From Aquabacterium humicola (lineage in GTDB: Bacteria > Pseudomonadota > Gammaproteobacteria > Burkholderiales > Burkholderiaceae_C): a stretch of 64,000 bases of DNA. The position numbers and the translations under genes were made by a program. The notes beneath the pieces are model-generated. The model was not told the origin of the DNA and did no database searches. It saw only the letters and a program-made list of their open reading frames with translations. Below, piece after piece: positions 12,983-52,130 of the stretch; position 1 is the stretch's first letter, and every line of letters begins with the position of its first letter. Location of the stretch: the NCBI RefSeq assembly GCF_030167915.1, contig NZ_JARGNB010000001.1, forward strand, positions 1,736,001-1,800,000. Reading direction: 5' to 3'.

Positions 12983-13165
12983 ACTTCAATGCTAGCAGTA
13001 AAGCCTTTGTGCGCCAAAGGAATTTCCCTGGGAGGCAGCAACAGCTCGTTGCGATTCTCCGACGTTTCGGAGCGCATTTGAAACAAGGCGCTGCGGCTCT
13101 CCGCGCACCTCGAAAGCGGCCTGAAACCGCCCTGGAGAGCGGCTTCTATACACTCGATCGCCAAG

Positions 13166-41000: not shown

Positions 41001-41201
41001 TCAGCGTCGGGCGGCCGGGGGCAGGCGCAGGCTGACGAAGAGGTCGCGCAGCGCCAGGTCGGCGTCGGTGCGCAGGTGCGGAAACAACTCGGTCAGCGCC
41101 AGCTGGGCCTGCGCCTCGCGGCCGAGCTGGGCGGCACTGGCCGGCAGGACCGGGCGGCTGGTGGCGGCACGGGCGGTGGCAACGGCGGCGGGCGGGGTCA
41201 T
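41001..41201 (-). CDS. small 66-aa protein, unknown function
   Basis: A short gene starting MTPPAAVATARAATSRPVLPASAAQLGREAQAQ and ending LFPHLRTDADLALRDLFVSLRLPPAARR. CAGGAG lies 8 nt before the ATG. The N-terminus is Ala/Pro-rich and probably disordered; the C-terminus is likely helical. There is no signal peptide. Support for it being a real gene comes from the good ribosome binding site and the 65-bp upstream module shared with the globin and the 80-aa gene at 48673-48915. Longer in-frame upstream readings would run through that module. Confidence 0.6.
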   Translation of the reverse strand: MTPPAAVATARAATSRPVLPASAAQLGREAQAQLALTELFPHLRTDADLALRDLFVSLRLPPAARR

Positions 41202-41233: not shown

Positions 41234-41298
41234 GCAGTGTGGGAAGCGCGTGCATCAGCGACGCTTCAGTCCAGGCTAGCCCAGGTTTCGTTTGTTGC
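41234..41298 (-). promoter_or_regulatory. shared 65-bp promoter module, copy 1 (66-aa gene)
   Basis: On the minus strand the box GCAACAAACGAAACC (41284-41298) is followed after exactly 43 bp by ACACTGC (41234-41240), with GCGCTTCCC just before it; the ATG at 41201 is 32 bp further on. The box is identical over 15 bases to copy 3 and matches copy 2 at 12 of 15. Within the spacer, GA at offset 16-17 and TG at offset 26-27 are the same in all three copies. It is not a recognisable sigma-70, sigma-54 or FNR site. Confidence 0.65.
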
Positions 41299-41312
41299 CG
41301 AGCCCCGGACGG

Positions 41313-41377
41313 ATAACAAAGGAAACCATTTGGCGGCCGGCGCGACACCGGGGTGCATCGATCCCCGCGCACACTGC
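41313..41377 (+). promoter_or_regulatory. shared 65-bp promoter module, copy 2 (globin)
   Basis: ATAACAAAGGAAACC (41313-41327) is followed after 43 bp by ACACTGC (41371-41377); the globin ATG is 36 bp further downstream. It faces copy 1, so AACAAA[C/G]GAAACC forms a 13-bp dyad (12 of 13 matching; arms 41284-41296 and 41315-41327) between the divergent 66-aa and globin genes. Confidence 0.62.
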
Positions 41378-41413: not shown

Positions 41414-41830
41414 ATGACGCCCGACCAGATCCGCCTCGTGCAGGCGAGCTTCGCCCGCGCGAAGACCGGCTCCGCCGACCTCGCCGCGCACTTCTACCGC
41501 CGGCTGTTCGAGATCGATCCGGCGCTGCGCCAGCTCTTCCGCGGCGACATGCACCAGCAGGGCGAACGCCTGCTGCAGATGCTGGGCGCGGCGGTCGGCC
41601 TGCTCGGCCGGCCGGAGACGCTGTTCCCGGTGCTGCATTCGCTGGGTGCGCGCCACGCCGGCTACGGCGTGCAGCCGGCGCACTACGACAGCGTCGGCAG
41701 CGCGCTGCTCGACACGCTGGCCGAGGCGCTCGGCCCCGGCTTCACGCACGAGCTGCACGCGGCCTGGACCCGGCTGCTGGCGGTGGTGCGCCAGGAGATG
41801 CTGCAGGACGCGACGCTAACCCTGAATTGA
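41414..41830 (+). CDS. single-domain bacterial haemoglobin
   Basis: A 138-aa globin of the Vitreoscilla-haemoglobin/flavohaemoglobin type without a reductase domain. MTPDQIRLVQASF is the A helix, FYRRLFEIDPALRQLF holds the CD-corner Phe, the E-helix region reads DMHQQGERLLQML with a Gln at the distal site, and LGARHAGYGV holds the proximal histidine, followed by HYDSVGSALLDTL. Such proteins bind O2 or NO in the cytoplasm. Start: ATG with family-like N-terminus. The last 15 bp overlap tail-to-tail with the end of the convergent hybrid kinase gene. Divergent from the 66-aa gene and carrying the same promoter module. Confidence 0.92.
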   Translation: MTPDQIRLVQASFARAKTGSADLAAHFYRRLFEIDPALRQLFRGDMHQQGERLLQMLGAAVGLLGRPETLFPVLHSLGARHAGYGVQPAHYDSVGSALLDTLAEALGPGFTHELHAAWTRLLAVVRQEMLQDATLTLN

Positions 41831-44782
41831 CGCGTCACCGGCGTCGAGCAGCGCGGCCACCGCGCGCAGCAGGTCGGCCTTGGCGAAGGGCTTGTCGAGC
41901 CCGGCGCAGCCGGTCTCGTCGAGGAAGCGCCGCGCGCCGGTCGACAGCGTGTCGCCGGTGACGAAGAGCACCCGCCGGGCCAGCGCCGGGTGCTGCTCGC
42001 GCAGCGCGCGCCACAGCGCCGAGCCGTCCATGTCGGGCATGCGCAGGTCGCTGATCACCGCGTCGAAAGCCGCCATCGACAGCATCTCCAGCGCCACCGC
42101 GCCCGATTCGGCGGTGGTCACCTCGTAGCCGGCCGACTCCAGCATGTCGCGCATCAGGCCGGCAATGTCGGCCTCGTCGTCGACGACCAGGATGCGCGCG
42201 AGCGCCGGCGCATCGGCCGCTGCGTCGGTGGCCACCGGCGGCGCGGCGGCCTCGGCCGCCGGCGCGGCGTCCAGCGGCAGGCTGAGGCGGAAGCAGGCGC
42301 CGCCGGTCGTCCGCTCCAGCCGCAGCTCGCCGCCGTGCGCACGCGCCAGCGACCGCGACACCGCCAGCCCGAGCCCGGTGCCGATGCCTTCGGCCTTGGT
42401 GGTGAAGAAGGGCTCGAAGATCTGCGCCTGCGCCGCCTCCGGCACGCCGGGGCCGTTGTCGACCACGCGCAGCCAGGCGTGCGGGCTGCGGTCCGCGCGC
42501 GGTGCCTCGACGCCGCTCGAGACGATCACGCGGCGCGGCAGCGCTTGCGCCGCGATCGCCTGCTGGGCGTTGATCAGCAGGTTCAGCACCACCTGGCCGA
42601 TCTGGTCGGCATCGGCCTGCACCCGCGGCAGCGCCGGGTGAAGGTCCAGCTGCAGCTCGATGTCGTGGCTGCGCCAGGTGTAGGCCAGCATCTCGGCGGC
42701 GGCGCGCGCGAGCTCGTTGAGGTTCACCGCGCCGCGCTGCGCCGGCCTGCTGCGGGCCATGTTCAGGAAGGTGCGCACGATGCGGCCGCAGCGTTCGGCC
42801 GCCTCGCGGATGCGGGCGGCGTCGTCGCGCAGCGCATCGCGCGAGGCCGGATCGTCGCCAGCGGCCGCATCGCCGAGCTTCTCCTCCAGCAGCCCGGCGC
42901 GGCCCATCACCACCGCCAGCGGGTTGTTCAGCTCGTGCGCGACGCCCGCCAGCAAGCCGCCCATCGCGCCGAGCTTCTCGCTCTGCCGCAGCGCCTCGCG
43001 CTGGCGCTCGATCTCGTGCTGCGCGGCGCGGCGCTCGGTCAGGTCGACCATCGACGCGGTGAAGTGCACCTCGCCGTCGAGCTCGGTGCGCCACAACAGC
43101 ATCTCGACCGGGAACTCGCGGCCGTCGCCATGCAGCGCGACGATCTCGACGCGGCGGCCGATGAAGTCGGCGCGCCGGCCGGCGACCAGCTGCAGCAGGC
43201 CGGCTTCATGCTCGGCCCGGAAGCGCTCGGGAAACAGCGTCGTGACGCGGCGGCCGAGCGCCTGCTCGCGCGGCAGGCCGAACATCGCCGAGGCGGCCGG
43301 GTTGAACTCGAGGATGCGGCCCGCGGCGTCGGTGGCGACGATGGCCGCCAGCGCATGGTCGACGATCGCCGAGTTGAAGGCCTCGCGCTGGTGGGACGCA
43401 CGCTGCGCACGGAAGGTCAAGGTCACCGCATCGACCCAGCCGCGCCAGCGCGCCGGCAGCGCCGGCGGCCGCGCGCCGGCGTCGACCGACAGCGCCCGCA
43501 GGTAGGCCAGCACGTCGAGCGCCGGCGCGATCATGCGGCGCGACAGCAGCCACTGGCCGGCGACGAAGGTCAGCAGCAGCGCCGCGGCGAGCAGCGCGTT
43601 GGGCGCCAGGCTGGCCAGCACCTGGGCGCGCAGCGTCGCCTCGGGCAGCGCGACCAGCGTGGCCCAGGGCGCGCCGTCGCGCGCCGCGCCGGCGAACAGC
43701 CAGCCGCCGTCGCGCTGCACCCGGCCGGGCTCGTGCAGCGCGTTCCGGGCGGCGGTGACCGGCAGCCCCGCCGGCAGGTGCTCGGCCAGCGCCACCGCGA
43801 GCTTCGGCCGGTCGGCACCGGGCGCCCAGGGTTGGCCCGGCGGCTGCAGCGGCGCCGCGGAATCGGCCATCACCTCGCCCACACCGCCACTACCAGCGGC
43901 GCCGCCGTCGCGCTGCATCGCGCTGACGATCCAGTGCCGCGCGCCGTCGGCGCGCGACCAGTCGGCCACGCGCTGCTGCAGTGCGTCGAGCCGGAAGTCG
44001 ACCGAGACCTCGCCGACGTAGTCGCCGGCGACGATCAGCATCGCGCCGTGCGAGACCACCAGCTGGCCGTGCAGCTGGCTGACGTCGGGCGCCCCCCACC
44101 AGGTCGTGCGCGGCGCGTGGCGGCGCAGCCAGTCGCGGCTGGAGGCCGACGCCTTGACGCGGATCGGCGCGATGCCGGTCAGCCCGTCGCTGCCCAGCGC
44201 CTGCACGATGCGTTCGGCCGGCAGGTAGGGATAACCGAAGGAGGTGTTGACGTCGACGCCGGCGAACCAGGTGGCCTCGAAGCCGGGCGCCCGCTGGTGC
44301 GCGATGCGTGCCTGCTGCACGAAGGCGGCGGCGCGCTGGACCCACGACTCGGGCATCGGCCGGCCATCGGGCTCGGCCCACCAGACCTGGCCGAAACGCT
44401 CCCGCGCGGCCGCTGGCGCCGCGTCGAGCGACCAGCCGTCCGGCCGTCCGGCGAAGCTGCGCGGCGACAGCGCCTGGCGCAGCGCCGGCCCGGCATCGGG
44501 CGGCGCATGCCACTGCGCCTGCAGCATCGCGCGCAGGTCGTGCACATGGTCGACCGCCGGCCGCGCCAGCTGCTCCAGTTCCTGCGCCCGCTGCTGCAGC
44601 CGCAGCAGCAGCGCCTGTTCGGCCGCACCGATGCGCTGGCGGTACTGCACGGCGCTCAGCACGGCCAGCAGCACCAGCAGCGGCAGGCCGAGCAGCCAGA
44701 CCAGGCGGCGCGGCGCCGCGAGCACGCGCTGGTCGGGCATCGACATCGCTGCCGACGGCGCCGGCCCCGGCGTGGCGGTCAC
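41816..44782 (-). CDS. hybrid sensor histidine kinase (second of tandem pair)
   Basis: A 988-aa membrane kinase. Order: cytoplasmic tail, membrane helix (RLVWLLGLPLLVLLAVLSAV, about residues 27-45), periplasmic sensor region (about 50-330, Cache-like by layout), second helix (LLAAALLLTFVAGQWLL), a PAS domain (SAIVDHALAAIVATDAAGRILEFNPAASAMFG), HisKA with GVAHELNNPLAVVMGRA (His phosphosite), HATPase_c (VDNGPGVPEAAQAQIFEPFFTTKAEGIGTGLGLAVS) and a C-terminal receiver (ILVVDDEADIAGLMRDML ... VISDLRMPDMDG). A GTG start overlaps the upstream kinase stop as GTGA; an ATG 36 bp inside is the alternative. Close paralogue of the preceding kinase, diverged mainly in the sensor region. Confidence 0.9.
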   Translation of the reverse strand: MTATPGPAPSAAMSMPDQRVLAAPRRLVWLLGLPLLVLLAVLSAVQYRQRIGAAEQALLLRLQQRAQELEQLARPAVDHVHDLRAMLQAQWHAPPDAGPALRQALSPRSFAGRPDGWSLDAAPAAARERFGQVWWAEPDGRPMPESWVQRAAAFVQQARIAHQRAPGFEATWFAGVDVNTSFGYPYLPAERIVQALGSDGLTGIAPIRVKASASSRDWLRRHAPRTTWWGAPDVSQLHGQLVVSHGAMLIVAGDYVGEVSVDFRLDALQQRVADWSRADGARHWIVSAMQRDGGAAGSGGVGEVMADSAAPLQPPGQPWAPGADRPKLAVALAEHLPAGLPVTAARNALHEPGRVQRDGGWLFAGAARDGAPWATLVALPEATLRAQVLASLAPNALLAAALLLTFVAGQWLLSRRMIAPALDVLAYLRALSVDAGARPPALPARWRGWVDAVTLTFRAQRASHQREAFNSAIVDHALAAIVATDAAGRILEFNPAASAMFGLPREQALGRRVTTLFPERFRAEHEAGLLQLVAGRRADFIGRRVEIVALHGDGREFPVEMLLWRTELDGEVHFTASMVDLTERRAAQHEIERQREALRQSEKLGAMGGLLAGVAHELNNPLAVVMGRAGLLEEKLGDAAAGDDPASRDALRDDAARIREAAERCGRIVRTFLNMARSRPAQRGAVNLNELARAAAEMLAYTWRSHDIELQLDLHPALPRVQADADQIGQVVLNLLINAQQAIAAQALPRRVIVSSGVEAPRADRSPHAWLRVVDNGPGVPEAAQAQIFEPFFTTKAEGIGTGLGLAVSRSLARAHGGELRLERTTGGACFRLSLPLDAAPAAEAAAPPVATDAAADAPALARILVVDDEADIAGLMRDMLESAGYEVTTAESGAVALEMLSMAAFDAVISDLRMPDMDGSALWRALREQHPALARRVLFVTGDTLSTGARRFLDETGCAGLDKPFAKADLLRAVAALLDAGDASIQG

Positions 44783-47703
44783 GACAGCAGACCGGCGACG
44801 CCCGCGAGCAGGTCGGCCTTGGAGAACGGCTTGTCGAGCTTCGGGCAGCCGGTGCCGTCGAGGAACTCGCGGGCGCCGGGCGACAGCGTGTCGCCGGTGA
44901 TGAACAGCATGCGCCGCGCCAGCGCCGGGTGGCCGCGCACGATCTCGGCGCGCAGCGCGGCGCCGTCCATGTCGGGCATGCGCAGGTCGCTGACGACGGC
45001 ATCGAAGCGCGCGGTGTCCAGCAGCTCCAGCGCGACGGCGCCGGACTCGGCCACCGCGACATCGTGGCCGGCGGACTCCAGCATGTCGCGGATCAGCTCG
45101 GCGACCTCGTTCTCGTCGTCGACGACCAGCACCCGCGACCGCTCGTGCGTCGTCGCGTCGTCGAGCGGCGTGGTGGCGCTCTCCGGCCCCGCCTCGCCGG
45201 ACAGCGGCAGGCTCAGCCGGAAACAGGCACCGCCCAGCGGCGCGACCGACTCCAGCACCAGGTGGCCGCCGTGGTCCTTGGCCAGCGAGCGCGACACCGC
45301 CAGGCCCAGCCCGGTACCGATGCCGTCGGCCTTGGTGGTGAAGAAGGGCTCGAAGATCTGCTCGGCCAGCTCCGGCGCGATGCCGGGACCGCTGTCGGCC
45401 ACGCGCAGCCAGACACGCGGCTCGCGGCCCGGGCGCGGCACCTCGACGCCGGTGGACACCTGCACGCGGCGCGGGCCGTTCTGCACGTGGCTCAGCGCCT
45501 GCTGCGCGTTGACGAGCAGGTTCAGCACGATCTGGCCGATCTGGTCGCCGTCGGCATTCACGGCGGGCAGCCGATCCGCCAGTTGCAGATCCAACTGGAT
45601 GCCATGGCTGCGCCACGTGTACGCCAGCATCTCGGTGGCTGCCTGCACCAGCTCGTTGAAGGCCACCGGCTCGCGCTGCGTGGGCTTGCTGCGCGCCATG
45701 TTCAGGAAGGTGCGCACGATGCGGCCGCAGCGTTCGGCGGCTTCGCGGATGCGCTGGGCATCGGCCGCCAGCTCCGGCGCGTGGCTGCACTTCTCCTCGA
45801 GCAGGCTGGCGCGGCCGAGCACGATGGCCAGCGGGTTGTTCAGCTCGTGCGCGACGCCGGCCAGCAGGCTGCCCATCGCCGACAGCTTCTCGCTCTGGCG
45901 CAGCGCGTCGCGCTGGCGTTCGATCTCCAGCGCCTGGCGGCGGCGCTCGGACAGGTCGACCATCGACGCGGTGAACACCGCCTGGCCCTCGACGTCGGCA
46001 CGCCACAGCAGCATCTCGACCGGGAACTCGCTGCCGTCGGCGCGTTGCGCCTGCATCTCGATGCGCTTGCCGAGCAGCCTGGCCGGCGCACCGTCGGCGA
46101 TGCGCCGCATCGCGCCCTCGTGCGCGGCGCGGAAACGCGGCGGGATGACGATCTGGCTCACCGGCCGGCCGACGGCCTGCGCGCGCGGCAGGCCGAACAT
46201 CGCCTCGGCCGCGGGATTGAACTCGACGATGCGGCCCTGCTTGTCGGTGGCCACGAGGGCCGCCAGCGCGTGGTCGACGATCGCCGACTTGAAGGCCTCG
46301 CTGCGGCGCTCGGCCGCGCGCGCGGCGCGCTGCTCGTCGAAGGTGCGGGTGATCACATGCGCCCAGCTGCGCCAGCGCTGCGGCAGCTCGGGCTCGGGGG
46401 CGTTGACGTCGAGCGACTTCGCGTGCAGGTAGCCCATCACGCCGAGCGCCGGCTGGATCACGCGCCGGCGCAGCATCACCTGGGCACGCAGGAAGAGGCC
46501 CAGCAGCGCCAGGCCGATCAGCGTGAACGGCGCCAGCCCCGGCAGCACCTGCGCCAGCAGCGCGCCGTCGCCGAGCGCGAGCACCAGCGTCCACGGCGCG
46601 TCGGCGACATCGAGCGCGACGACGCGGTGGCCGGCCAGGGCCAGCGCGCGCCCGCCGGAGCGCTGCGCCTCGGCCAGCGCCGCGGCATCGAAGCCGGCCG
46701 GCAGCGCGCGCGGCGTGGTGCTGGGGCCGTCGTCGGACGCCATGCGTTCGGCCAGCACTTCGCCATGGGCATCGAGCACCCACCAGTAGACCTGCTTCAG
46801 CGTGCCGACCGGCCGCGCCGCCGCGACGCGGGCGATGCTCGCCAGCCGCACCTCGGTGCCCACGACGCCGCGGAAATCCTCGCCGACATAGACTGGCTGC
46901 GCGTGCAGCAGGCGCGGCGCCGCGGTGCCGCTGCGCTGCACCGGCGCCCAGTAGCCGCGCTGCTCGGGGTTGCGCTCGGGCCGGCCGTTGGCGAACACCG
47001 GCGAGGCATAGGCCTGCTCGACCAGCGCCGGGATCGTCGGCACGCCGCCCGCGTCGAGCAGGGCCTGGCTCGGCAGCCAGGGGTAGTGCACCAGCAGCTT
47101 CTCGGGCCAGCCCAGAAACAGCGAAGCCGCCAGGTCGGCATGGCGGCTGTGGGCGATCTCGGTGGTGCGCGACAGCGACTGCAGCAGCGCCAATGTCGCC
47201 TCCGGCGGCGGGGCGCCGGCGTGCGGCCACAGCAGCTGTGCGCTGCCGCCGTGCAGCAGCGGCGGCAGCTCGTCGAGCGCGTAGCCGTCCGGCACAGCCT
47301 CGTCGCCGCGGCGCTTGAGCGCATCGCGCAGCGCGCGGTCCGCGGGCTGGGGCGAGGTCAGCACCAGCTCACGTTCGGCGACGAGGCGCAGATCGGCGAC
47401 ATGGTCGGCCGCGACGCGCGCCAGCACCTGCAGCGCGGCATGCTGCTGCGTGGCCTGGCGCTCGAGCTCGGCGAGCACGGCGATGCGCGACTGCCAGGCC
47501 TGCCACAGCGCCAGCACCAGCAGCAGGCCGAACAGCGGCAGCGCGCTCAGCCACAGCTGGCGGCCGTAGCGGCGCTCGAGCGCGACGGCCGACACGTCCG
47601 GCGACAGGCGGTAGCGCCCGGTGTCGTCCAGGTTGACCTGAGCCGCCCGCGTGGCGGGCGTGTCGGCCAGGTCGTCGCCGGATCGGTCGACCCGGTGGTC
47701 CAT
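44779..47703 (-). CDS. hybrid sensor histidine kinase (first of tandem pair)
   Basis: A 974-aa kinase of the same layout: helix (LWLSALPLFGLLLVLALW), periplasmic region (about residues 70-330), second helix (FTLIGLALLGLFLRAQVML), PAS domain (SAIVDHALAALVATDKQGRIVEFNPAAEAMFG), HisKA with GVAHELNNPLAIVLGRA, HATPase_c (VADSGPGIAPELAEQIFEPFFTTKADGIGTGLGLAVS) and receiver (VLVVDDENEVAELIRDML ... VVSDLRMPDMDG). The ATG at 47703 overlaps the stop of a three-codon minicistron (TGATG) just after the regulator gene; a GTG one codon earlier is possible. Part of the operon regulator-kinase-kinase. The AERCGRIVRTFLNMARS stretch is identical in both kinases. Confidence 0.9.
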   Translation of the reverse strand: MDHRVDRSGDDLADTPATRAAQVNLDDTGRYRLSPDVSAVALERRYGRQLWLSALPLFGLLLVLALWQAWQSRIAVLAELERQATQQHAALQVLARVAADHVADLRLVAERELVLTSPQPADRALRDALKRRGDEAVPDGYALDELPPLLHGGSAQLLWPHAGAPPPEATLALLQSLSRTTEIAHSRHADLAASLFLGWPEKLLVHYPWLPSQALLDAGGVPTIPALVEQAYASPVFANGRPERNPEQRGYWAPVQRSGTAAPRLLHAQPVYVGEDFRGVVGTEVRLASIARVAAARPVGTLKQVYWWVLDAHGEVLAERMASDDGPSTTPRALPAGFDAAALAEAQRSGGRALALAGHRVVALDVADAPWTLVLALGDGALLAQVLPGLAPFTLIGLALLGLFLRAQVMLRRRVIQPALGVMGYLHAKSLDVNAPEPELPQRWRSWAHVITRTFDEQRAARAAERRSEAFKSAIVDHALAALVATDKQGRIVEFNPAAEAMFGLPRAQAVGRPVSQIVIPPRFRAAHEGAMRRIADGAPARLLGKRIEMQAQRADGSEFPVEMLLWRADVEGQAVFTASMVDLSERRRQALEIERQRDALRQSEKLSAMGSLLAGVAHELNNPLAIVLGRASLLEEKCSHAPELAADAQRIREAAERCGRIVRTFLNMARSKPTQREPVAFNELVQAATEMLAYTWRSHGIQLDLQLADRLPAVNADGDQIGQIVLNLLVNAQQALSHVQNGPRRVQVSTGVEVPRPGREPRVWLRVADSGPGIAPELAEQIFEPFFTTKADGIGTGLGLAVSRSLAKDHGGHLVLESVAPLGGACFRLSLPLSGEAGPESATTPLDDATTHERSRVLVVDDENEVAELIRDMLESAGHDVAVAESGAVALELLDTARFDAVVSDLRMPDMDGAALRAEIVRGHPALARRMLFITGDTLSPGAREFLDGTGCPKLDKPFSKADLLAGVAGLLS

Positions 47704-47722
47704 CACTGCGCCATCACTGCGC
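47701..47722 (-). repeat. 11-bp tandem duplication creating a three-codon minicistron
   Basis: Two perfect copies of GCGCAGTGATG (minus strand) lie head to tail across the regulator-kinase junction. Each contains TGATG. In the first, the regulator's stop TGA overlaps an ATG which reads Met-Ala-Gln-stop; that stop overlaps, in the second copy, the ATG of the kinase. The junction thus has two successive stop/start overlaps. Confidence 0.85.
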
Positions 47723-48481
47723 GTTCGGCACGAACACGTAGCCGACGTTGCGCACGGTCTTGATGACCTCCGGCTTGTCCGGGTTGCGCTCGATCTTGCG
47801 GCGCAGCCGCATCACGCGCAGGTCGATCGAGCGGTCGAACACGTCCCAGCCGCGGTTGTGCGCCTGTTCCATGATCTGGTCGCGGTTCAGCGGCCGGTTC
47901 GGATGGCGGGCGAACAGCGCCAGCAGGTCGAACTCGGCGGCGGTGATCGGGATCTCGGCGCCGTCGGCACCGAAGAGGCGGCGCTCGTCGAGGTCGAGCT
48001 GGCAGGCGCCGAAGGCGATGCGCTGGCCGGGCGGGGCCACCGGCACGACGGCCGCCGGCGCGTTCGCCGCGGCGGCCGGCGCCTCGGCGGTGCTGCCGAT
48101 GCGGCGCAGCAGCGCACGCACACGGGCCAGCAGCTCGCGCGTCTCGAAGGGCTTGGGCAGGTAGTCGTCGGCGCCGAGCTCGAGGCCGACGATGCGGTCG
48201 ACCGCTTCGCCGGCCGTGGTCAGCATCACCAGGCCGACGCGCGGGTGCGTGTCGCGCAGCCAGCGCGCGAGCGACAGGCCGTTCTCGCCCGGCATGTTGA
48301 CGTCGAGGATCGCGACGTCGGGCAACGAATCGGCGAACAGCTGGCGCGCGACGGCGGCGTCCTGGGCGGTGCGCACCTCGAAGCCGTGGCGGCCGAAATA
48401 TTCGGCGAGCAGCGAACGCAGCTCGCCCTCGTCATCCACCACCAGCAGGCGCGGAACGGGATCGGGTTCAGTTGAAGTCAT
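47714..48481 (-). CDS. OmpR-type response regulator
   Basis: A 255-aa two-component regulator. Receiver domain: acidic pocket VVDDEGE (D16-D17), phospho-acceptor D60 in VAILDVNMPGENG, and DDYLPKPFE with the conserved lysine. An Ala/Pro-rich linker (about residues 125-150) leads to the winged-helix DNA-binding domain (ITAAEFDLLALFARHPNRPLNRDQIME; RSIDLRVMRLRRKIE; KTVRNVGYVF). I prefer the ATG at 48481, preceded by GGGAG; an ORF extending to 48571 would add a 30-residue unstructured tail. First of three genes with the two hybrid kinases; no HPt protein is encoded nearby. Tandem 13-bp repeats upstream suggest autoregulation. Confidence 0.92.
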   Translation of the reverse strand: MTSTEPDPVPRLLVVDDEGELRSLLAEYFGRHGFEVRTAQDAAVARQLFADSLPDVAILDVNMPGENGLSLARWLRDTHPRVGLVMLTTAGEAVDRIVGLELGADDYLPKPFETRELLARVRALLRRIGSTAEAPAAAANAPAAVVPVAPPGQRIAFGACQLDLDERRLFGADGAEIPITAAEFDLLALFARHPNRPLNRDQIMEQAHNRGWDVFDRSIDLRVMRLRRKIERNPDKPEVIKTVRNVGYVFVPNAQ

Positions 48482-48600
48482 CGCGGTCACTCCCGGGGCC
48501 GCAACCGGGGCCGCGACGGAAGCCATGGCGGGCCGTGCGGAACGATCGGCGGTGGTAGGCATGGCAAGCATGGTGGTGGCGGCGATCCTGTGAGGGGCGG

Positions 48601-48670
48601 GTTTCAGCGCGGCTTCGATTCAAGCCGCGCCATGATTCAATTGTTTCAGCGCTGTCGTTCAGCGTTGTCG
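48601..48670 (-). promoter_or_regulatory. direct repeats and stem-loop upstream of the response regulator
   Basis: Two adjacent 13-bp repeats, TTCAGCGCTGTCG (48645-48657) and TTCAGCGTTGTCG (48658-48670), differ at one base; the 10-mer GTTTCAGCGC at 48643-48652 recurs at 48601-48610. Tandem head-to-tail repeats are the usual binding layout for OmpR-family regulators. Between them, GCGCGGCTT/AAGCCGCGC (48607-48615, 48622-48630) form a perfect 9-bp stem with a 6-nt loop but no U tract. The region separates the 80-aa gene from the regulator. Confidence 0.5.
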
Positions 48671-48672
48671 CC

Positions 48673-48915
48673 TCAGGCGACCAGGCCGGCGGCCGGCCAC
48701 AGCGCGATCAGCGCGGCGGCGAGCGTCGCGCCGTACAGCAGCGCCGGCACCGGGCGACTCACGGCGGACGGGGCAGCCATGGCGTCGTCGCCGCCCAGCA
48801 GGTCCTCGGCGAAGGCTTCGCTGCGGTACAGCCAGGTCGGCAGGCCGGCCTCGTCCGCGTCGAGCATCGGCGCGGCGGTGAAGGCGGCGGCGGGCATCGT
48901 GGCGGTGGCGGTCAT
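48673..48915 (-). CDS. small 80-aa membrane protein, unknown function
   Basis: An 80-aa protein starting MTATATMPAAAFTAAPMLDADEAGLPTWLYRSEAF, with an acidic middle (EDLLGGDD) and one C-terminal hydrophobic helix (VPALLYGATLAAALIALWPAAGLVA), which would place it as a tail-anchored inner-membrane protein. CAGGAG lies 8 nt before the ATG. It precedes the regulator-kinase-kinase operon on the same strand and carries copy 3 of the 65-bp promoter module. It is not homologous to the 66-aa protein beyond Ala-richness. Confidence 0.62.
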   Translation of the reverse strand: MTATATMPAAAFTAAPMLDADEAGLPTWLYRSEAFAEDLLGGDDAMAAPSAVSRPVPALLYGATLAAALIALWPAAGLVA

Positions 48916-48955: not shown

Positions 48956-49020
48956 GCAGTGTCGGCAGCGCCCGTTTCAGGCGGCCTTCGCCGGCGGTCG
49001 ACGCGGGTTTCGTTTGTTGC
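48956..49020 (-). promoter_or_regulatory. shared 65-bp promoter module, copy 3 (80-aa membrane protein)
   Basis: GCAACAAACGAAACC (49006-49020, minus strand) is followed after 43 bp by ACACTGC (48956-48962), preceded by GCGCTGCCG; the ATG at 48915 is 40 bp further on. The 15-mer is identical to copy 1, and the segment GCGCTnCCnACACTGCC is shared with copy 1 at the same spacing. Confidence 0.65.
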
Positions 49021-51246: not shown

Positions 51247-51981
51247 TCAGGGTTTCGACACCGGGTTGTCGAACGAATACTCGCGCAGCCCCGCGAGGTC
51301 CAGCACACGAAGCCCGCCGTACTCGATGCGGATCACGTTCTGGTCCTGCAGCGCGCGCAGCGCCTGGTTCACCCGCTGGCGCGACAGGCCGACGAGGTAG
51401 GCGAGCTCCTGCTGCGTGATGCGCAGCAGCTCGCCGACGCCGGGGTAAAGGATGGGGTGGAACAGCGCCGCGAGGCTGCGCGCGACCCGCGCGTCTGGGT
51501 GGTTCTGGCGGTCGATCTCGCGCGCGGCGATGAACTGCCCGAGCCGCTCGTTGAGCTGGTTCATCACGAAGCGGTTGAACGGGATGCTGCGGTCGAGCAG
51601 CGCATGGAACTCGTCGATCGGCAGTCCGGCCACCGTGCTGCGGCGCAGGGCTTCGATGTTGTAGCGGTAGACCTCGCGCTTGAGCAGCGTGCCTTCGCCG
51701 AACCACGCGCCGGGCGGGATGCCGGTGAAGGTGATCTGCGCGCCGCCCTTGCTGTCGTTGCTCATCTTCAGCAGGCCGTCGACGACGCCGAACCAGTAGG
51801 TCGGCGCACGCCCGACGCGGCAGATGCGGTCGCCGGGTTCGGCATGCGCGACGACCAAGATGCGCGCCATGCGCTGCCGGTCGTCGGCATCCAGCACCCG
51901 CAGCCACGGGATGCTCTGCAGTTCCGCCGACGAGGGCGAGCGCGCACGCTCGCGCAGCGACGACGCGGCCGACATGACCAT
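51247..51981 (-). CDS. Crp/Fnr-family transcriptional regulator
   Basis: A 244-aa regulator. The N-terminal cyclic-nucleotide-binding-like domain (about residues 25-140) has RVGRAPTYWFGVVDGLLKMS and PPGAWFGEGTLLKRE; no Fnr-type cysteine cluster is present. The C-terminal winged helix reads LLRITQQELAYLVGLSRQRVNQALRAL, with the recognition helix at SRQRVNQAL. Start at the ATG with AGGAG 7 nt upstream; a TTG and another ATG lie close by in frame. It is divergent from the ligase/liv operon over 149 bp and is the natural candidate to control it. Effector unknown. Confidence 0.88.
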   Translation of the reverse strand: MVMSAASSLRERARSPSSAELQSIPWLRVLDADDRQRMARILVVAHAEPGDRICRVGRAPTYWFGVVDGLLKMSNDSKGGAQITFTGIPPGAWFGEGTLLKREVYRYNIEALRRSTVAGLPIDEFHALLDRSIPFNRFVMNQLNERLGQFIAAREIDRQNHPDARVARSLAALFHPILYPGVGELLRITQQELAYLVGLSRQRVNQALRALQDQNVIRIEYGGLRVLDLAGLREYSFDNPVSKP

Positions 51982-52130
51982 GCTCAATCTCCTACCACGG
52001 GAAAGTCCGCTCGGGTCGGACCCTAGGATTGTCGTTGGACCGACATCATGACGTCAAACTTGTCCCTAGCATCCGCGTCCAACGAGGTCCCGGTCACTCG
52101 ACCGGTCCGCCTCGCCCGAAGGAGCCGCAG

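Follow-up and report, generated by a model that had tools for sequence, protein, structure and literature searches.

Face-to-face promoter modules beside a globin gene of Aquabacterium humicola and a candidate OmpR-type regulon

What controls the globin gene of Aquabacterium humicola that stands back to back with a gene for a 66-aa protein (p66), each preceded by a copy of the same promoter-like module? The initial annotation of this locus proposed a specific regulator common to the two genes. We analysed the whole 64,000-nucleotide stretch that contains the pair (hereafter, the window). The face-to-face modules are very probably promoters activated by the OmpR-family response regulator (RR) encoded at 47714-48571, within a self-regulated regulon of about 20 promoters.

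Promoter modules in the window

The two boxes match in 12 of 13 letters, and in both modules ACACTGC follows after exactly 43 bp. ACACTGC is located 32 nt from the start codon at 41201 on the minus strand and 36 nt from the one at 41414 on the plus strand. The spacers have GA at offset 16-17 and TG at offset 26-27 in common. All these features had been described in the initial annotation and were reproduced here. A search of the whole genome (7,386,564 bases) for box-N43-ACACTGC revealed three exact matches, all inside the window, with none for the reversed control; 100 dinucleotide shuffles gave 0 matches against the three in the window. When up to three mismatches were allowed, five matches were found in the same genome and, again, none with the reversed control. 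Among 100 relatives, a search with up to two mismatches returned 12 places in six genomes, A. humicola included, compared to one place for the reversed control. Singleton matches were seen in relatives G029 and G077.

The box had been reported once toward each divergent gene. Both copies are present, but a third exact copy of the module and a degenerate fourth copy, both on the minus strand, had been overlooked (modules 3 and 4 in Table 1). The proposal that the two boxes form a 13-bp dyad did not survive as a statement about a fixed element: in ten distinct divergent pairs among the loci examined, the gap between boxes is 12-22 bp in nine and 54 bp in one. A fixed 13-bp operator dyad was therefore rejected, as the spacing varies; the dyad simply marks where two divergent promoters meet.

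Table 1. Features of the window (positions are those of the window; R1, profile described in the text)
Feature	Position	Strand	Details
p66, 66-aa protein	41001..41201	-	no Pfam or NCBIfam match
Promoter module 1, toward p66 gene	41234..41296	-	box 41296-41284; half-sites TGAAGC 41268-41263, TGATGC 41257-41252; -10-like CACACT 41241-41236; R1 32.0 bits, E 6e-9
Promoter module 2, toward globin gene	41315..41377	+	box 41315-41327; half-sites CGACAC 41343-41348, TGCATC 41354-41359; -10-like CACACT 41370-41375; R1 32.7 bits, E 4e-9
Single-domain globin, 138 aa	41414..41830	+	Pfam PF00042, 70.9 bits (cut-off 22)
Hybrid histidine kinase 2	41816..44746	-	PAS, HisKA, HATPase, REC; Pfam on 41819-44641; start inferred from ORF listing
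Hybrid histidine kinase 1	44779..47706	-	dCache-like periplasmic sensor (structure model); PAS, HisKA, HATPase, REC (Pfam)
RR, OmpR/PhoB-family response regulator (proposed regulator)	47714..48571	-	Pfam Response_reg, Trans_reg_C
Promoter module 4 (degenerate), directly 5' of RR gene	48585..48650	-	PWM match; half-sites CGAAGC 48617-48612, TGAAAC 48606-48601; -10-like CAGGAT 48590-48585; R1 27.1 bits, E 2e-7
p80, 80-aa protein	48673..48915	-	YRSEAFAEDL at 48799-48828; no Pfam or NCBIfam match
Promoter module 3, toward p80 gene and regulator operon	48956..49018	-	half-sites CGAAGG 48990-48985, TGAAAC 48979-48974; -10-like GACACT 48963-48958; R1 35.7 bits, E 4e-10
CRP-like protein	51247-51987

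The module follows the response regulator

A sequence profile, R1, was built from 25 sites in 19 genomes of other genera, with none from the genus of the window. Sites with 15- or 17-bp spacing, the near-twin locus L059 and three weaker matches (one in L065, two in L082) were left out of the training set. R1 finds all four sites of the window, with E values from 4e-10 to 2e-7. A fifth match in the window (13076-13132, plus strand) is weak (13.1 bits, E 0.0055) and probably arises by chance.

Orthologues of the RR were collected by a protein search of 299 genomes of the family. The 34 genomes, including that of A. humicola, that have an orthologue with at least 64% identity were counted as RR-positive, and the same-genus genome G018 was added to make 35. 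R1 matches were present in 34 of the 35, with 2 to 22 sites each; only G137 had none. Among the RR-positive genomes without a training site, 15 of 16 contained matches. In a set of 45 RR-negative genomes, hand-picked from those of 5 Mb or more rather than comprising all of them, four had a match, one each, with best E values of 0.0019-0.0099 (34/35 vs 4/45, Fisher 5e-17). Twelve further RR-negative genomes, searched with laxer filters, yielded three with one match (best E 7e-4), so that the pooled count is 7/57, once and weakly in each case. G016, a same-genus genome outside both sets, has one match (E 0.005). At the level of the order, where 150 genomes were scanned irrespective of the RR, matches at E 1e-4 or better were found in four of the 149 other genomes. 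The adjacent OmpR-type regulator, whose binding the initial annotation had suggested testing, thus emerges as the best candidate (34/35 vs 7/57).

The same comparison bears on a different protein as the binder, with the local RR a mere neighbour. Another OmpR-like RR, 59% identical, is encoded elsewhere in the genome (C6:41516-42307, locus L083), and a site similar to the modules (37.9 bits with the PWM) precedes its own gene, making cross-talk possible; the CRP-like protein of the window is the other candidate. Furthermore, R1 matches occur in three of six genomes, scanned with laxer filters, whose RR homologue reaches only intermediate identity (48-55%). However, the profile tracks the local RR orthologue as described above, and none of the four window sites contains an FNR- or CRP-like palindrome with fewer than three mismatches; the initial annotation had likewise stated that no FNR/CRP site fits. 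We consider binding by another protein improbable. The motif and the RR could also be inherited together without direct binding. The matches in the intermediate group suggest that the operator code may not be restricted to the strict RR orthologue and may be shared across a wider RR clade. Two genomes of this group are G177, with a match at C45:9253-9309 (E 9e-7), and G257, with two matches, one of them at C2:668278-668319.

Among the best 80 of 288 RR relatives are orthologues from Aquabacterium, Rhizobacter, Roseateles, Pelomonas, Piscinibacter, Rubrivivax, Leptothrix, Rhodoferax and Variovorax, as well as distant ones (about 56-64% identity) from gammaproteobacteria such as Thiocapsa and Thiodiazotropha. 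R1 was run around these loci in one scan of 52 of the 80 and in another of all 80. Around the distant orthologues (L191-L204, L213-L218) it found little, and the operator may have diverged there. One exception is L214, where a globin gene is preceded by a strong site.

Conservation of the promoter upstream of globin genes

The globin was also compared with the flavohemoprotein (Hmp) model, which it matches with 63.4 bits against 432 and in the globin part only; it is not a flavohemoprotein by this measure. A homologue is present in 31 of the 80 named RR loci (the best 80 of 288). Together with the window this gives 32 globin genes, and a promoter site is located 12-72 nt upstream of 20 of them and 195-278 nt upstream of eight more, with a small ORF in between. 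Before the remaining four of the 32, no site of 14 bits or more was detected. In the named globin loci outside the overlap with the training set, 17 of 20 have the promoter. The initial annotation would have been contradicted by a lack of conservation upstream of orthologous globins; with the promoter preceding 28 of 32 globins in RR loci, the link between promoter and globin is conserved. The small ORF that separates promoter and globin in eight loci encodes the peptide RSEAFAED in seven and RSEAFYED in L160.

Promoter anatomy

The 43-bp spacer carries the half-sites YGAARC and TGAWAC at a distance of 11 bp from each other, and the GA and TG dinucleotides common to modules 1 and 2 are parts of them. 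The second half-site is followed, after 10 bp, by a hexamer nAnnnT, which in modules 1-3 of the window reads (C/G)ACACT. This geometry was assessed with boxes chosen by AACAA[ACT][CGT]GAAAC alone in 67 loci (1,288,815 b): the window plus 66 named loci that have no overlap with the training set. Identical 93-mers were removed. The set contains some closely related loci, as well as the window and its genus, from which the idea had arisen. The search yielded 47 boxes, compared to none in five Markov shuffles. A recognisable last half-site (the best of four offsets) was present in 37 of the 47. GA occurs 11 bp before it in 30 of these 37, compared to 0-1 at phases 8-10 and 12-14, and nAnnnT follows after a gap of exactly 10 bp in 33 of 37, compared to 0-1 at gaps 5-9 and 11-15. 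Direct repeats with an 11-bp period at a fixed distance above a σ70 -10 element are what is expected of an OmpR/PhoB-type promoter, and 30/37 and 33/37 of the boxes, respectively, show the two parts of this arrangement.

The box itself has the layout AC-N4-GNNAC in three of the four window sites and in 23 of 25 aligned training sites; the latter count is not independent, since a similar box had been used to choose these sites. According to the accessible portion of PMC7867234, an OmpR site has GXXAC at its centre and a conserved AC at a distance of 9 nt, and in three of the four window sites an AC likewise lies 9 nt from that of GXXAC. The agreement of the box with the OmpR layout, together with the 11-bp repeat, points to two tandem pairs of OmpR-like half-sites above a σ70-type -10 element. 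Counting from the -10 element, the lower pair spans positions -39 to -23 and the box positions -67 to -56, both approximately.

A and T at positions 2 and 6 of the -10 hexamer are the usual σ70 pair. The earlier statement that no known sigma factor fits was therefore too strong, since the ACACTGC end holds a σ70-type -10 element. An alternative sigma factor, with the box serving as a remote element of its promoter, would agree with the strict spacing and with the lack of a σ70 -35 sequence in the initial annotation. On the other hand, a sigma-only element would not be expected to have direct repeats spaced by 11 bp or a box some 43 bp above the -10, and the A and T of the hexamer fit σ70. The σ54 sequence TGGCAY-N5-TTGC, which is also the -24/-12 element of PrsR/RpoN promoters, has no match better than three mismatches in the four window sites. 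We regard this explanation as very improbable. Like σ54, FNR and CRP sites were discarded as candidates, having no good match in the four window sites. A bare GG-N10-GC is present in single copy in the p66 region and in the globin region, and its location differs between the two.

The sign of regulation is a separate matter. The second and third half-sites cover the -35 region, so bound RR might shut the promoters in one condition, and OmpR acts either way, as an activator or as a repressor, according to the part of PMC7867234 that is available. In the aligned sites, however, no -35 hexamer other than the half-sites stands out and the -10 is weak, and the fixed 10-bp distance to the -10 element is the spacing that would be expected for an activator in contact with the polymerase. 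We find repression unlikely and favour activation. In an activated promoter, phosphorylated RR would bind four GNNAC-type half-sites per module. The upstream pair, AC and GNNAC spaced by 9 bp, would be that of the box, and the downstream pair, 11 bp apart, would replace the -35 element and assist σ70 RNA polymerase at the weak -10 (nAnnnT), which begins 10 bp beyond the last half-site.

The regulator and its kinases

The 80-aa ORF is followed by the RR gene and then by the genes of two hybrid histidine kinases, the last of which ends beside the globin gene. The RR contains a receiver (PF00072 Response_reg, 91.9 bits) and a winged-helix domain (PF00486 Trans_reg_C, 79.7 bits). Its residues D46, D47, D90 and K140 are invariant in 24 aligned orthologues, as in a conserved receiver; we take them to be the acidic pocket, the phospho-acceptor Asp and the Lys. 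The best curated relative is OmpR (NCBIfam NF007005), with a score of 233.7 bits, below the equivalog cut-off of 331, and the PhoB model TIGR02154 scores 161.1 bits with a cut-off of 296.2, so the RR qualifies as an orthologue of neither. The RR probably starts at an internal ATG at 48481 (255 aa), which has an RBS-like GGAG. A distance of 13 nt separates the end of module 4 from the first ATG in the RR ORF, and hence either the start of the RR or the role of this site is uncertain. The type of promoter described here would also feed back on the RR's own operon.

Residues 1-470 of kinase 1 were modelled by AlphaFold with a pLDDT of 89.5 (29 sequences). In Foldseek the model matches dCache ligand-binding domains of chemoreceptors and of CqsR; the best solved domain has an E value of 1.6e-6, with modest TM-scores. 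Pfam dCache_1 is matched by 19 of 29 kinase 1 homologues and not by kinase 1 of the window itself. The resemblance of the predicted sensor to dCache domains suggests that the signal is probably a small periplasmic molecule. The hybrid kinases would feed such a small-molecule signal into the system, kinase 1 through its dCache-type periplasmic sensor. Since both kinases are hybrid and no Hpt domain was found with Pfam in ten neighbouring proteins, the phosphorelay is incomplete on paper.

Targets of the regulon

In the genome of A. humicola, R1 finds 22 sites at E 0.01 or better and 29 at 0.05. A script-chosen start codon lies 20-70 nt downstream of 17 of the 22; the other five, the RR site among them, are doubtful or have an unsure start. 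Apart from the globin, p66, p80 and the RR, predicted targets include SecB, an alpha/beta hydrolase, secreted or membrane-like proteins of unknown function, and two paralogous 70-71-aa proteins. The idea of a specific regulator for the globin and the small protein is thus supported, but the regulon is not limited to these two genes; it is genome-wide and includes the operon of the regulator itself. Globins, the hydrolase, a 360-aa protein and a 53-58-aa protein recur as targets across genomes. The SecB assignment (C9:6415, L127) is based on 209 bits against an equivalog cut-off of 181, and a secB gene behind a promoter site would link the regulon to protein export. The paralogous 70-71-aa proteins are encoded at C5:72248 (L128, no Pfam match) and C17:4393 (L134), each behind a promoter site.

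Downstream proteins were inspected for PEP-CTERM-type tails in a sample of 52 rows, consisting of the 22 A. humicola sites and 30 sites from three genomes. The rows hold 49 distinct proteins, because an opposite-strand site was taken for divergent pairs in L118, L239 and L250. Seven of the 49 have such tails. Five of the seven pass the TIGR02595 cut-off; L135, the one from A. humicola, and L249 have weak matches to PEP-CTERM subfamily models only. There are 19-113 PEP-CTERM matches per genome (at least so many for two genomes), and about 0.6 would be expected beside 70 sites, assuming 0.92 genes per kb (Poisson 3e-6). The outputs of the system would then be the globin, small proteins often with RSEAFAED, PEP-CTERM exoproteins and other envelope proteins.

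Comparison with known systems

Among the closest known systems is EnvZ/OmpR of E. coli and Yersinia. The RR family is the same, and the box shows the combination of a GXXAC half-site and another AC at 9 nt that is given in the available text of PMC7867234. In contrast to EnvZ/OmpR, the RR scores below the OmpR equivalog cut-off, the kinases are hybrid with a dCache-type sensor, an extra 11-bp pair stands at a fixed distance to the -10, and the targets are different.

PhoB sites are placed over the -35 region just above the -10, as are the half-sites described here. Pho boxes are also direct repeats with an 11-bp period, being composed of 7-nt repeats with a 4-nt spacer in the excerpted account of PMC3131613; the repeat is CTGTCAT there, whereas here it is TGAAAC/TGATAC.

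Two-component control of PEP-CTERM genes is known in related bacteria, where PrsK/PrsR acts with RpoN (PMC9850573, in part). That system employs a Fis-type regulator and -24/-12 promoters, unlike the OmpR-type regulator and -10 promoter proposed here. Two other systems were set aside, judging from partial texts: BiofilmReg (PMC5192318), which has a CreB-type RR with a CHASE2 kinase, and EmbRS of Rubrivivax (PMC3684757), which has a LuxR-type RR and a 10-TM kinase.

No account of this RR two-component system or its regulon was found in the open-licence literature searched, and the OmpR-type regulon is apparently undescribed. A two-component system conserved in many Burkholderiales thereby gains a candidate regulator, an operator code and a list of targets. 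A single-domain globin and exosortase-type matrix proteins become tied under one putative control, apart from the PrsK/PrsR-RpoN route.

Small proteins with the RSEAFAED peptide

Relatives of p66 were found in two same-genus genomes only (L015 and L016 of 35 loci; L144 and L146 of the best 80 of 288). The product of the gene behind module 3, p80, has a C-terminal hydrophobic segment, as judged by eye, and contains RSEAFAED. A codon pattern for this peptide was found at 20 places in 17 of 35 RR-positive genomes and in none of 45 RR-negative ones, with 0 for the reversed control in the 80 genomes. All 20 places have a same-strand promoter site 41-218 nt upstream, three of them weak (15.8-18.5 bits). 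A looser regular expression applied to 81 loci returned 19 ORFs, all with RSEAFAED and all behind a promoter site, two of which are weak.

The proteins are 47-95 aa long. The position of the peptide ranges from the N-terminal to the C-terminal part, and the residue preceding it is often Y, F or W. The proteins are otherwise unalike, with a hydrophobic C-terminus in only some of them (by eye). Its codons vary, which argues that the constraint acts on the peptide. The string RSEAFAED was not found in the open-licence literature searched. Systems of this kind are familiar. Within the reach of our searches, novelty lies in how the operator is laid out, in the joint occurrence of a globin and PEP-CTERM proteins as targets and, most of all, in the RSEAFAED proteins.

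We tentatively propose that these proteins form a hidden class in which the peptide serves for docking to a single partner common to them all, the likeliest being this two-component system, while the rest of the scaffold can vary; they may then be RR-induced feedback or connector peptides. A precedent for a small protein from an RR-controlled promoter (predicted in our case) is MgrB, which belongs to the PhoP regulon; according to the available portion of PMC8404706, this small membrane protein inhibits the kinase of the PhoPQ system. Unlike MgrB, the RSEAFAED proteins vary in layout; the likeness lies in the promoter context, and the feedback is putative. The motif makes it easy to test whether these proteins are small regulators of a new kind. 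In L254, L267 and L269, an extra small ORF with RSEAFAED precedes a gene that is similar in all three and encodes a protein of about 327 aa that looks membrane-bound.
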